A stretch of 64,000 bases of DNA from Thermosynechococcus sp. HN-54 (lineage in GTDB: Bacteria; Cyanobacteriota; Cyanobacteriia; Thermosynechococcales; Thermosynechococcaceae). Below, piece after piece: positions 1 through 4,902 of the stretch. The notes under the pieces are model-generated. The model was not told the DNA's origin. It saw only the letters and a program-made list of their open reading frames with translations, and did not search any database. Position 1 is the stretch's first letter, and each line of letters starts with the position of its first letter. The translations under genes were made by a program, and so were the position numbers. The stretch spans positions 248,001-312,000 of the forward strand of contig NZ_CP098039.1 in assembly GCF_023650955.1 (NCBI RefSeq), read 5' to 3'.

Positions 1-1405
1 GGCGATAGGCATCCTCATAGAGACCTTTGGTGGCGCGGTAGAGATTGACATAGCGATTGATCACCGCCTCTACCCCCCTCTCATCCACCTGCTCAAAGAG
101 GCGTCGGCGAATTACTTCGTAGATCTCTTCCCCTTGGACAGGGACGCGCACCGCCTGCACACGGCCAAAGATATTTTCAAGGCGAGCAAAGGCCTCCGCA
201 GCCCCCTCTTGGTCGTAATACTCTAGGTGGGATTCAGGGAAGGTGAGTACCAACGTCGTATCGGAGGTACTGCCCACCACCTCACTCAGTTCTTGCAAAA
301 AGGCAAAGGTTTGGGCTTGGAGGGTGGTTTCGCCAACCCGCACACCGGCGGCCTTCACCTGATAGACCAAGATTTCATCCATGAGGATCAAGGCAGGGCC
401 CCACTGGCGGAAGAGTTCTCGCAGGGGTTCTTTGCTGGGGGAAATACGCTCGCGATCGGCGGCGGCCACAAGGGCATACCCGTCTTCACCCCCCAATTGC
501 CGAGCCAATTCTCCCCAGAGGGTGTGCTTCTGCGGTGAGAGATCGGTGCCCACCAAGACGGCTACCTTGGCGGTGGGAATCTCATTCTTTTCTAGTAAAT
601 CTTGGATCACGGGTAGATCATTGACTGCCGCTCGATGGGCAAGGAGATGATAGAGGGCAATCAGGGCATGGGTTTTACCACCCCCAAAGGGTGTCCGCAG
701 CTGTACCACCGCCTCTCCGCCCTTGCCTTGGAGTCGCCGCAGCACATCCTGGAGCAGGGCACGCAGTTCACGGGTGAGGTAGGTTTTGCGGAAAAATTCT
801 TGGGGGTTGTTGTACTCAAAGCCAGCCGTCCCGGCCACCACATCATCCAGCTTGGCAGCAAAGGTACTTTCATCAAATTGCCCTGCTCGAATGTCGGCAT
901 GGGGTGTGGCAATGTGCCACCACGAGGGCAGATGGTTAAACGTGGGAGTGGAAGGCGCTGCAGGACGGGTTTGGCCATCTCGCAGGGCTTTGACGGTGAT
1001 TGCTGCCTCTGTCGCGCCAATGATCTCTAGAATGCGGGCAATGGAGTCGAGGGTGCGGTAGCTATCCTCTGGCCGAATGTCATCTTGATGTGCCCACAAA
1101 TTACGGACTTCAACAATTTCATCGACCCAAGCCACGACTCTTGCATGGCGCTTAAAGGTATCGCGGAAAACCTCCCGCTGGCCAAGGAAGACATCCTTGA
1201 GATGGGTAATATCCACCACCTCTTCGGGAAGTGTGCCCTTCTCGAGTTCTTGGAGAACATTTTCGCGGCGGCGCTCACTGAGGCTTTGCAAATAGGCTTC
1301 AAACCAAGCGCGGCCTTCGCCATAGTGGGCTTTGAGCTTGTCCACCACAAAGGGACAGACATGATTGGCATAAAGTTTGAAAGCATCGGCAAGTTGACTA
1401 TTCAT
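1..1405 (-). CDS. HEPN/DUF499-domain ATPase, defence-associated (3' end outside window)
   Basis: The frame is open from an ATG at 1405 to the left edge, giving 468 residues of a longer protein. I translated it from the sequence. Residues 1-130 resemble a Swt1-type HEPN domain, with an R-N-L-W-A-H motif at 101-106 that fits the RX4H signature of HEPN ribonucleases. A P-loop of the DUF499 kind (PFGGGKTH, 239-246) and a Walker B-like LILMDE (339-344) follow. The start overlaps the methyltransferase stop by four bases (ATGA), so the two are translationally coupled. DUF499 and DUF1156 proteins are known to occur together, usually with a helicase, in candidate anti-phage loci. The family match is good. 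The defence role is inferred from the pairing, and the rest of the system lies left of the window. Confidence 0.85.
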   Translation of the reverse strand, partial: MNSQLADAFKLYANHVCPFVVDKLKAHYGEGRAWFEAYLQSLSERRRENVLQELEKGTLPEEVVDITHLKDVFLGQREVFRDTFKRHARVVAWVDEIVEVRNLWAHQDDIRPEDSYRTLDSIARILEIIGATEAAITVKALRDGQTRPAAPSTPTFNHLPSWWHIATPHADIRAGQFDESTFAAKLDDVVAGTAGFEYNNPQEFFRKTYLTRELRALLQDVLRRLQGKGGEAVVQLRTPFGGGKTHALIALYHLLAHRAAVNDLPVIQDLLEKNEIPTAKVAVLVGTDLSPQKHTLWGELARQLGGEDGYALVAAADRERISPSKEPLRELFRQWGPALILMDEILVYQVKAAGVRVGETTLQAQTFAFLQELSEVVGSTSDTTLVLTFPESHLEYYDQEGAAEAFARLENIFGRVQAVRVPVQGEEIYEVIRRRLFEQVDERGVEAVINRYVNLYRATKGLYEDAYR

Positions 1406-4119
1406 AGGCTGAGTTGTCCTTGATCAGGTTGAATCAGTTGCGGCAGACTTTCGCGATAGGCGAGGAATTCATGGAGCAAACGGTCATCGAGAATATCGGC
1501 AAGGGCTTGGGTCACCACCCAAAAACTCGGCTGCTGAAGATACCCCACCTCGTCGAGGTACTTGGCAACCCCCTCGCGGCCTTCCTCTGGCAGCAGCAAC
1601 AGTGACCGATGCAGGGCATCAATGATGGGTACCGCCTCACCAAACCCAAAGTTCTTGTCCTTTTGGCTGCGTTCCTTGGCACTGGGCAAGAGGGTCTTTT
1701 CTCCCTTGATCTGCACTAGACTGCCCAGCTCACTCAACTCCACCCCGGTACTTTGGGCCAGCTTGCGGGCTTCATCGGAGGGCAACTCATTGCCATAGGC
1801 CCACAGTGCCAAGAGGGCAAATTGCGTCGGGCTATCCACATCAGCGACACTTGTTGTCCCCAGCACCTGCTCAAGGGCAAACTCCAGCACAATTTTGCGT
1901 ACCTCCATCAAGAGTTCGCCCACGGTGACTGCCCGACCATCGGCACGTTGCACCACATCGTAGGCACTGTAGGCCTCTAGCCCTGGGCCGATCGCCGACA
2001 TGAAAAAGTCCGCGCCACGAATCCCCGCTTGCCAAAACTGCTCTAGGCGAGGCCGAATCGACGCTTGCATCTGATTGCGCACACTGGTGAACAAGCCCCG
2101 CTGACCACCCTCCCGCTTGGTGCAACTGAGGAATGTTGAAGAGGCCAGTGCCGCTGAGTTGCGTGCCCGTAGGCGTGTTTGCATTTCTGTATGCAGTGGC
2201 CATGAGGCTTGCACCTGAAAGCCAGCGGCAATGAGGGCGCTAATCAGGGTTTCCCAAGCATCGGTGCTTTTGTGGGCAAAGACAATGGTGGCTTTTCCCC
2301 GTGGTTTGAGGACGCGGTGCATTTCCTGAAAGGCCTGCTGCATCATGGTTTCAAAGAAAGCTTTGGCCTTGTCGTTGTCACCACTGTGGCGGACGGGATT
2401 TTGGACAATTTCTTGGCCTTTGGGGGTGAGGGGGGTGCGAAAGTGCTCTGGATAGAGATGCCCGACGGTGCGCCGCAGCCAGACATAGAAAAAGTCCGAG
2501 AGGTCAGCATAGGGCACAGCATCGTAGTAGGGGGGATCGGTGACAATGGCATCAAAGAAGTTGTCGGCAAAGGGAAGAGATGTGGCAGTTGCGCGTTTTA
2601 CAGTAACAGGCAAGATACTTGCAAAAGAAAGCGATTGAATAGAGAACCAAACCCACTGAGCTGCGTTAGGCCAACCATTATTAATTAAGGGATTAATTTC
2701 CGCATAATCCCAAACCATGGGTAGAGCTTGACGCGAGAAAACGTGAGTTGGGTTATCCCGTGTGTTGTCCCAAACAACAATGGAAGCATTTTTGTCAATC
2801 ACACGATCAAGAATTAGGCTCAAGTAGGTTGTGACTGCCTTTGCGAACTCCTCCTCCATGCCCTGTTGCAGCATTTCCGTGTGGGCAGCGCGAACCCACT
2901 GGGCAAACGTGACCAAGGCCAAGGCTTGCCGCGCGTTAAAGAGGTCTCCCCATCTCTTCATTCCGTACAATGGCGCATTGAAAACACCCGACCACTCCAA
3001 AATTGGTTCTTCAGGAATGGCAGATAGGTTGTTCAAAGAAACTTGGGTCTGAGTCTTCTGTAATTGCTGACTAGCTAAAAGAAACCTGTTGTAATCTGCT
3101 TGGGTAGCAACACGATAGGTTTTCCCTTCTCTGCCTTCACTCGACAGCACAACGGCTAACAGTCTTTGCCCCATTTTGCCTTCACAGCCTTGGCGGCGCA
3201 GGTACTTCCCCTCAGCAACAGAACCACAAATTGGGCACTTGGCATTGTCGCGTTGCATCGTGCCCTCCTCTGGCCAAGTGGCTCCCGCAGGGACTTCCAC
3301 CACATCAAAGGTGATGGTTTTCGTTGCTGTATCCACGCAGGGTTTGAGGGCAAGGCGCTTTTTCTCTTTTTTCGCTAGCCACCATTGGCGCACAAGCGGG
3401 ACTTCGGCTCGACAGGTGGGGTTCGTACACGTCACTGTCCGTGCCCAGAGATAGGCTAGCGGCGTCTTGCCATCGCCATCTACTGGATAAAAGTCCGCTA
3501 GTTCTGAGCGTGCTCGCTCCAATACCCACTCGCCCCAATAACGCACTTCCGTGGCCAAGGGATTTTGGGCATAGGCCTGCTGCCATTCCCCCGTCTCACC
3601 ACTGAGCAGCAAAGATTGTTGGGTGCGGTTTTGGGCATCACGGGCGCGAATGTATTCAGGAATCGCACGGCTATTGGGCTGGCCATAGCGTTGGGGGTAT
3701 TCCAGTGTCCCTTTCAGCAGCAAATAGGCTACAGGATTCAAATCCACGGCATAGGTTTCACAGCCCAAGCGCAAGGCCTCAAGGGGAATCGCCCCACCCC
3801 CGGCAAAGAGATCCAATACCCGTGGGGGTGTACCACCAAAAGCTTCTAAAATTTGCTGCCGCGCCTTCTCAATGGCCGGGGTGTTGCCATCTTTAACCGC
3901 CTCCCAAGGGACAATCGCCTCCACCAGCTTGTAGTTTTCGTCAGTATCTGGCACCAGTGTGGCAAAGACTGCTGCTCGACTAGCTGTTAGGGGTTTTCTA
4001 GTCCACCAGATGTGGAGCGTAGAAATGTGGCCGTGGCGAATGGACTTTTCGCGGGCGGAGGCCTCGGAGATGGGTTGTAGGGGCAAGCGGGACTCAATGA
4101 GGCGACGAGGGTGCGACAT
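1402..4119 (-). CDS. DUF1156-type DNA methyltransferase
   Basis: This 905-residue protein begins with the DUF1156 signature region (IRHGHISTLHIWW, about 28-39). The SAM-binding motif I follows (DLFAGGGAIPLEA, 103-115, then AVDLNP). Cysteine pairs at 231-236 and 295-298 look like a zinc ribbon inserted in the methylase fold. The catalytic motif IV is DPPYY at 528-532, which points to amino-methylation of adenine or cytosine. The length fits the family. It is the first intact gene of a minus-strand unit and overlaps the DUF499 gene downstream by four bases. It probably modifies host DNA for a restriction-like defence module. No target-recognition domain could be assigned by eye. Confidence 0.9.
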   Translation of the reverse strand: MSHPRRLIESRLPLQPISEASAREKSIRHGHISTLHIWWTRKPLTASRAAVFATLVPDTDENYKLVEAIVPWEAVKDGNTPAIEKARQQILEAFGGTPPRVLDLFAGGGAIPLEALRLGCETYAVDLNPVAYLLLKGTLEYPQRYGQPNSRAIPEYIRARDAQNRTQQSLLLSGETGEWQQAYAQNPLATEVRYWGEWVLERARSELADFYPVDGDGKTPLAYLWARTVTCTNPTCRAEVPLVRQWWLAKKEKKRLALKPCVDTATKTITFDVVEVPAGATWPEEGTMQRDNAKCPICGSVAEGKYLRRQGCEGKMGQRLLAVVLSSEGREGKTYRVATQADYNRFLLASQQLQKTQTQVSLNNLSAIPEEPILEWSGVFNAPLYGMKRWGDLFNARQALALVTFAQWVRAAHTEMLQQGMEEEFAKAVTTYLSLILDRVIDKNASIVVWDNTRDNPTHVFSRQALPMVWDYAEINPLINNGWPNAAQWVWFSIQSLSFASILPVTVKRATATSLPFADNFFDAIVTDPPYYDAVPYADLSDFFYVWLRRTVGHLYPEHFRTPLTPKGQEIVQNPVRHSGDNDKAKAFFETMMQQAFQEMHRVLKPRGKATIVFAHKSTDAWETLISALIAAGFQVQASWPLHTEMQTRLRARNSAALASSTFLSCTKREGGQRGLFTSVRNQMQASIRPRLEQFWQAGIRGADFFMSAIGPGLEAYSAYDVVQRADGRAVTVGELLMEVRKIVLEFALEQVLGTTSVADVDSPTQFALLALWAYGNELPSDEARKLAQSTGVELSELGSLVQIKGEKTLLPSAKERSQKDKNFGFGEAVPIIDALHRSLLLLPEEGREGVAKYLDEVGYLQQPSFWVVTQALADILDDRLLHEFLAYRESLPQLIQPDQGQLSL

Positions 4120-4204: not shown

Positions 4205-4525
4205 TTAGTTTTCTGAGATGGATTGGCCAAGCCGCTGCCCCAAGGCCACGATGTCTTGGTAGCGTGCCAAGGTCTGCCACCAATCCGCAGGCACATCGCC
4301 AAGCTCAAAGACAAGCGCAGCAATGCCGCCTGTCACTGTTGCTGTTGTATCGGTATCACCCCCCAAGTTGACTGCCTTCAGCACCGCCTCCAAATAGGAT
4401 TGACTAGTCAAGAGACACCACAATGAGGCCTCAAGGGTATGCACGACATAGCCAGAATTGACGCTCTCGCCGAATGAATTTGGGGGATTCTTACGCAGTC
4501 CACAATCGAACTCGTAATGGCGCTG
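4205..4525 (-). pseudogene. ADP-ribosylglycohydrolase, C-terminal remnant
   Basis: An open stretch of 106 codons has no credible start and is closed upstream by a stop at 4526-4528. It carries the C-terminal hallmark of DraG-type ADP-ribosylglycohydrolases: an SGYVVHTLEA-like segment followed by NLGGDTDTTA, whose aspartates bind the metal pair. Family members are about 250-350 residues, so roughly the first two thirds are missing. The break lies next to a gene-poor stretch with hairpins, which suggests loss by insertion or deletion. It is 85 bp upstream of the methyltransferase and in the same direction. An ATG-less product is unlikely to be active. Confidence 0.75.
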
Positions 4526-4706: not shown

Positions 4707-4727
4707 TTGTGGTGTTGAATCCCACAA
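4707..4727. repeat. hairpin TTGTGG-N9-CCACAA
   Basis: A perfect six-base stem with a nine-base loop, 50 bp from the other hairpin. It may be part of the same element end or a terminator-like structure downstream of the amidotransferase gene. No T-run follows on either strand. Confidence 0.35.
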
Positions 4728-4902
4728 CAAGACTTAACATTCTAAGCCACACGTAGCTCCAGCTGCCAATCAAAGCTCCAATGCACTATCTTAGCTTGCA
4801 TAGCGCTAGCCATACACTGCCGACTCAGTTTTAGTTGCACATAAAGTTTATGATGGACAGCCACCGAAGAAATGAGCTCAAGGAGCTTGACTTTTAATGT
4901 AG

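Follow-up and report, generated by a model that had tools for sequence, protein, structure and literature searches.

A divided Hma defence locus in Thermosynechococcus sp. HN-54, with a distant helicase gene and two mosaic HmaB methyltransferase genes

The hmaB1 and hmaC genes

We analyzed a stretch of 64,000 nucleotides from Thermosynechococcus sp. HN-54 (contig NZ_CP098039.1, positions 248,001 to 312,000; the window), at whose left edge lie two genes of the Hma defence system, both on the minus strand. The first, hmaB1 (window 1402-4119), encodes a DUF1156 DNA-adenine methyltransferase of 905 amino acids, and its stop codon overlaps the ATG of hmaC in the sequence ATGA. The second, hmaC, encodes a HEPN_Swt1-DUF499 ATPase, of which the window holds the 5′ part (window 1-1405). 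With 16 kb of flanking sequence added, hmaC extends past the left window edge as far as contig position 246244 and specifies 1053 amino acids in total, the first 468 of them within the window (2-1405, minus strand).

Both genes were identified with Pfam and PADLOC, the latter matching HmaC with an E-value of 1.9e-143 and HmaB with one of 2.2e-147. By these matches the window pair is HmaB and HmaC of Hma, a DUF499-centred system also known as Type-1 BREX (bacteriophage exclusion)-related or Type-1 BR. A preliminary description of the sequence had read the pair as a defence-type methyltransferase and ATPase with an N-terminal HEPN domain, the DPPY methyltransferase being joined to the DUF499 gene by an ATGA overlap, and had named Hma for comparison. 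That much stands, and the PADLOC models bear out the comparison. The description also held that the module looked unnamed and the fused HEPN unusual, and here it does not hold. Hma was named in 2021 in PADLOC (PMC8565338). Fusions of a Swt1/Abi2 HEPN with DUF499, of the Ava_2192 type, were reported in 2013 with restriction-modification (R-M)-like neighbours and an SNF2 helicase-DUF3883 protein (PMC3710099), and a 2026 survey, which calls the group Type-1 BR, found it in 1370 taxa (PMC12839542). The HEPN-DUF499 fusion is already known and ordinary as a find. The interest of the locus is moderate and lies in its rearrangement and in a pair of methyltransferases that differ in the target recognition domain (TRD); what we claim as new is a variant of Hma.

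The assignment of a Swt1-type HEPN domain to HmaC residues 8-130 (window 1016-1384, minus strand) is confirmed. Searching the N-terminal region with profile hidden Markov models, as had been proposed, returns Pfam HEPN_Swt1 with an E-value of 2.4e-18 and a score of 66.9 bits (cut-off 27.5). The RX4H motif reported earlier at residues 101-106 (RNLWAH) is present, with R101 at window 1103-1105 and H106 at window 1088-1090 (minus strand). RX4H alone is weak evidence because it turns up in 38% of the sequences obtained by shuffling the first 150 amino acids. Its R and H are kept in 14 of 14 aligned HEPN-bearing homologues, and in the AlphaFold2 model of the window part of HmaC residues 2-143 are all helix, mostly at a predicted local distance difference test score (pLDDT) of 84-95. 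Motif conservation, profile match, and all-helical model together make the assignment convincing. The Walker A motif of the DUF499 AAA+ ATPase, PFGGGKTH, is likewise found as described (residues 239-246; window 668-691, minus strand); DUF499 itself matches with a Pfam E-value of 2.1e-35, and FGGGKTH is unchanged across 19 aligned relatives. Foldseek with the N-terminal model gave marginal AAA+ matches only, including BrxC of a BREX complex (9zll_D, E = 0.017), a result that bears on the AAA+ part and not separately on the HEPN fold. No solved structure of a relative of HmaB or HmaC was found by sequence search. DUF499 relatives, many with a HEPN domain, are also encoded on 36 contigs filed in a viral collection (L131-L166).

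HmaB1 has its DUF1156 domain at residues 12-61 (window 3937-4086, minus strand; Pfam E = 1.8e-22). Sequence and alignment place the S-adenosylmethionine (SAM)-binding motif I region, VLDLFAGGGAIP, at residues 101-112 (window 3784-3819, minus strand), within which FAGGG occupies residues 105-109. The catalytic motif IV, DPPYY (residues 528-532; window 2524-2538, minus strand), is invariant in 7 aligned HmaB proteins, as are four cysteines of zinc-finger type, C231, C236, C295, and C298.

A separated helicase gene and a formerly continuous operon

HmaA, the third core protein of Hma, is not encoded in the same locus, which has metH on one flank and the remnant of an ADP-ribosylglycohydrolase (ARH) gene on the other. 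The preliminary description had suggested looking for a helicase and for DUF3780 to the left of position 1. Neither is there, and it is metH that lies downstream of hmaC. When the genome was searched with the HmaA model, one HmaA turned up at 780-784 kb, within another Hma locus, and one standing alone at 2687-2690 kb. The lone HmaA has 1102 amino acids, is open throughout, and matches the model with an E-value of 5.8e-210. It contains a Walker A motif, DEAH, and a D-x-E-x-K nuclease pattern (YDIESSGRCIEVKG), and it has a NOV_C/DUF3883 domain at residues 977-1060 (E = 3.8e-18). In Calidithermus chliarophilus, hmaC-hmaA-macro-hmaB form one run, and the proteins of this locus are 49% (HmaC), 60% (the lone HmaA), and 65% (HmaB) identical to those discussed here; none of the other relatives fetched comes close to these values. 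Since, among the loci fetched, this same one holds the nearest relative of all three proteins, we take the lone HmaA to be the cognate helicase. The lack of a helicase, which had been named as grounds against a defence module, therefore does not count against the system, because its cognate HmaA is found elsewhere on the chromosome.

The ARH gene records how the two parts came to be separated. In the window genome it is broken and frameshifted: its 3′ remnant, residues 252-332, lies directly upstream of hmaB1 (window 4211-4453, minus strand), and its 5′ part, residues 10-243, directly follows hmaA at 2.69 Mb (L066:12537-13139). The pieces at the two places are complementary, and the operon was therefore once continuous. 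An insertion-sequence remnant, the 3′ end of a DDE transposase gene (window 4712-4843, unstranded), pairs with one beside hmaA (L066:13873-14004); these remnants on the two sides are 132 nt long, 92% identical, and inverted relative to each other, and an IS630-type transposase is present on the hmaA side. At the level of sequence, these pieces document an ancestral order metH> <hmaC <hmaB <ARH <hmaA kinase> and a rearrangement at the insertion-sequence remnants that cut through ARH and moved hmaA, leaving the three core genes intact. Because the complementary ARH pieces show ancestral contiguity, we read the locus as derived and split, not as a standard member of its family. The distance from hmaB-hmaC to hmaA is now about 0.27 Mb if the contig is a closed circle and about 2.4 Mb otherwise. 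A simple two-breakpoint inversion was considered and set aside, since other species do not have the two outer flanks (starting at window 4903 and at L066:14134) side by side; for this reason we claim only a rearrangement at the insertion-sequence remnants.

The metH-kinase site was compared in two genomes of the same genus as the window genome (G002 and G004) and in further relatives (G003, G007, and G010). In G002 and G004, ARH is intact and lies between metH and a sugar-kinase-like gene; the G002 copy has a Pfam E-value of 2.6e-77. Next to ARH in G002, the last 168 residues of HmaA survive at 90% identity, and G003, G007, and G010 keep scraps of the HmaC C-terminus beside metH at this site. 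The HmaA remnant of G002 includes an open frame of 163 amino acids (L167:3550-4041, minus strand) that corresponds in frame to only the NOV_C/DUF3883 nuclease part, at about 90% identity; G002 kept this nuclease frame after losing most of the system. A gene for handling ADP-ribose lies between hmaA and hmaB in both lineages, ARH in the cyanobacterium and a macrodomain protein (L068:8865-9923) in Calidithermus. No ADP-ribosyltransferase was noticed near these genes.

Two HmaB genes with a mosaic relationship

A full second HmaB gene, hmaB2, is located at 2009.6-2012.3 kb, 1.76 Mb from hmaB1, and is flanked by an ABC-permease gene and an anti-sigma-like gene. It ends in an ATGA overlap with the latter (L009:12303-12312), the same overlap as between hmaB1 and hmaC. 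HmaB1 and HmaB2 are 99-100% identical outside two blocks: residues 1-39 and 64-286 show zero differences, and residues 390-905 show nine (synonymous divergence, dS, 0.014). Block 1, residues 40-63 (window 3932-4002, minus strand), has five amino-acid changes, with synonymous sites saturated (proportions of synonymous and nonsynonymous differences, pS and pN, of 0.78 and 0.125). Block 2, residues 287-389 (window 2953-3259, minus strand), differs at 66 of 103 residues (about 38% identity), and its synonymous sites are saturated as well (pS 0.84). The longest identical run between the two genes is 672 nt, a length that 2000 random placements of the differences never approached, none exceeding 170 nt. 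Saturated silent sites adjoining identical ones indicate an old divergence that was overwritten by recent gene conversion.

What related species have kept suggests that hmaB2 is old at its site. There, G004 retains 126 nt from the 5′ end of hmaB and 40 nt from its 3′ end, G009 retains 81 nt of hmaB, and G002 has a 21-nt scar that is a possible hmaB remnant; the flanking genes adjoin each other in G002, G003, G007, and G010. In view of the G004 and G009 remnants, a recent duplication was rejected as the origin of HmaB2.

Block 2 is probably the target-recognition part, to judge from its position. The TRD of these methyltransferases is inserted after the SAM-binding strands and before the DPPY motif, and it carries a four-cysteine zinc finger (PMC12839542). 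Block 2 sits between FAGGG and DPPYY, inside the FGG-to-DPPY insert where the TRD is expected, and takes in the second cysteine pair, C295 and C298. Over this block HmaB2 is 57.5% identical to the HmaB of Calidithermus and HmaB1 38.7%; the Calidithermus genome has no second HmaB, its one HmaB being accompanied by a weak 32% match. In a search for the donor of the HmaB1 block, identity did not exceed 41% across 386 genomes of the phylum, and viral contigs gave no match.

A possible trans-acting system and the alternatives

From the family identities, the intact frames, the former contiguity, and the gene-conversion mosaic, all of which have a basis in sequence, we infer a trans-acting Hma system, once one operon and now split, with two HmaB methylation specificities; we give this reading a probability of about 0.6. 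The family model comprises self-marking by N6-adenine methylation, a recognition complex built by the ATPase, a helicase-nuclease effector, and a suicidal HEPN backup (PMC12839542, PMC3710099), much of which PMC12839542 grades as likely, not proven. Applied here, HmaA, HmaB, and HmaC would act in trans, and HmaB1 and HmaB2 would methylate two different DNA motifs, marking self. The sequences show HmaB2 kept nearly identical to HmaB1 by gene conversion except in the presumed TRD block and the short N-terminal block. On unmarked DNA, the AAA+ ATPase HmaC would assemble with HmaB and recruit HmaA, an SNF2-type helicase with a DUF3883/NOV_C nuclease, leading to degradation of that DNA; the HEPN of HmaC may be a backup RNase released once this first line fails. 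More tentatively, and with some doubt on our part, a single HmaA-HmaC effector pair, its two genes lying far apart, might be served by both methyltransferases, their common parts matched by gene conversion and the specificity block held apart, which would yield two restriction specificities.

Several observations weigh against a working system of this kind. AlphaFold models HmaB poorly (pLDDT 59.6), so that block 2 is assigned to the TRD from the order of the motifs and from published work. At residues 40-45 (window 3985-4002, minus strand), HmaB1 reads WWTRKPLT where every other HmaB compared has WWARRPL; it departs from WWARRPLA at T40, K42, and T45, the first two positions being invariant in the other HmaBs compared. 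These changes could mean that HmaB1 is impaired, or else that the motif has co-varied with the TRD of the same protein. Upstream of hmaB1 in its present, split position, a weak test detected no sigma-70-like promoter. In addition, the second Hma locus of the genome has an intact helicase, which could in principle serve HmaB1 and HmaC instead of the lone HmaA.

The split may also have disabled the defence, leaving hmaB1, hmaB2, and hmaC as leftovers or orphan housekeeping methylases. The relatives did lose the system and retain only scraps, ARH is broken and frameshifted, and HmaC of the other Hma locus carries an in-frame TAG. Yet hmaA, hmaB1, hmaB2, and hmaC are all open with their motifs intact, and the differences in block 1 are mostly synonymous, which indicates past constraint on both HmaBs; we consider such decay unlikely. 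We are only a little readier to accept that HmaB1 alone belongs to the defence complex and that HmaB2 is an orphan methylase whose motif has a use outside restriction, in gene regulation or in protection against another system. HmaB2 does stand alone between its two neighbours, overlapping the ATG of the anti-sigma-like gene, and is long-standing there. Its TRD block, however, is the nearer of the two to that of the Calidithermus operon, and every other long segment is common to HmaB1. That misassembly produced the split or the second HmaB seems highly improbable: insertion-sequence copies do occur at the breakpoint, but the assembly is a single 2.7-Mb contig, 99.99% complete, the breakpoint repeats are only 132 nt long and 8% different, the flanks of hmaB2 are unique, and related species hold hmaB2 remnants at the same site.

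The system shares with Hma/Type-1 BR the HEPN-bearing HmaC ATPase, the DUF1156 HmaB, and the SNF2-type HmaA with a C-terminal nuclease domain. It differs in that hmaA is distant from hmaB-hmaC, hmaA and hmaB once had an ARH gene between them, and HmaB is encoded twice, with a different TRD block in each gene. HmaC has the same domain order as Ava_2192-type fusions and the protein itself shows no difference from them. Two HmaBs for one BREX-related system would be comparable to a Type I R-M system that draws on several hsdS genes. As in TRD exchange among Helicobacter pylori Type I and III R-M systems (PMC3983042, PMC3077401), the methylases are alike outside the TRD, which moves by recombination at conserved flanks; unlike the H. 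pylori case, this is a BREX-related alpha-class N6 methyltransferase, and two distant loci in one genome each keep a copy. Among open papers, to which our literature search was confined, the 2026 survey contains no term for scattered, dispersed, inverted, or gene-converted systems (PMC12839542). PglZ, BrxB, and other BREX core genes were not recognized among the flanking genes, with no genome-wide PglZ search made.

If it still works in trans, this genome is a clean natural case of a split defence system, and locus-based defence finders may miss such rearranged systems because they look for neighbouring genes. Near-identical outside two blocks, hmaB1 and hmaB2 are a ready pair for asking which part of the methyltransferase sets DNA specificity, and they bear on whether ATPase-helicase partners follow methyltransferase specificity in BREX-related systems.

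Two further loci in the genome are related. In the second Hma locus, HmaA and HmaB are intact, and the TAG in its HEPN-DUF499 HmaC (L010:7476-10892, minus strand; about 771.5-774.9 kb) follows codon 344, just past the P-loop. DUF3780, which marks Type-2 BR, is matched only once in the genome, at 2157 kb next to another locus that is broken, and not in the hmaB-hmaC locus. At about 2157-2163 kb (L047:7360-13311), the DUF3780 fragment is accompanied by a piece of a DUF1156-type methyltransferase, an inserted DDE transposase, and a 712-amino-acid helicase piece, and from this gene content the remains look like a Type-2 BR system.

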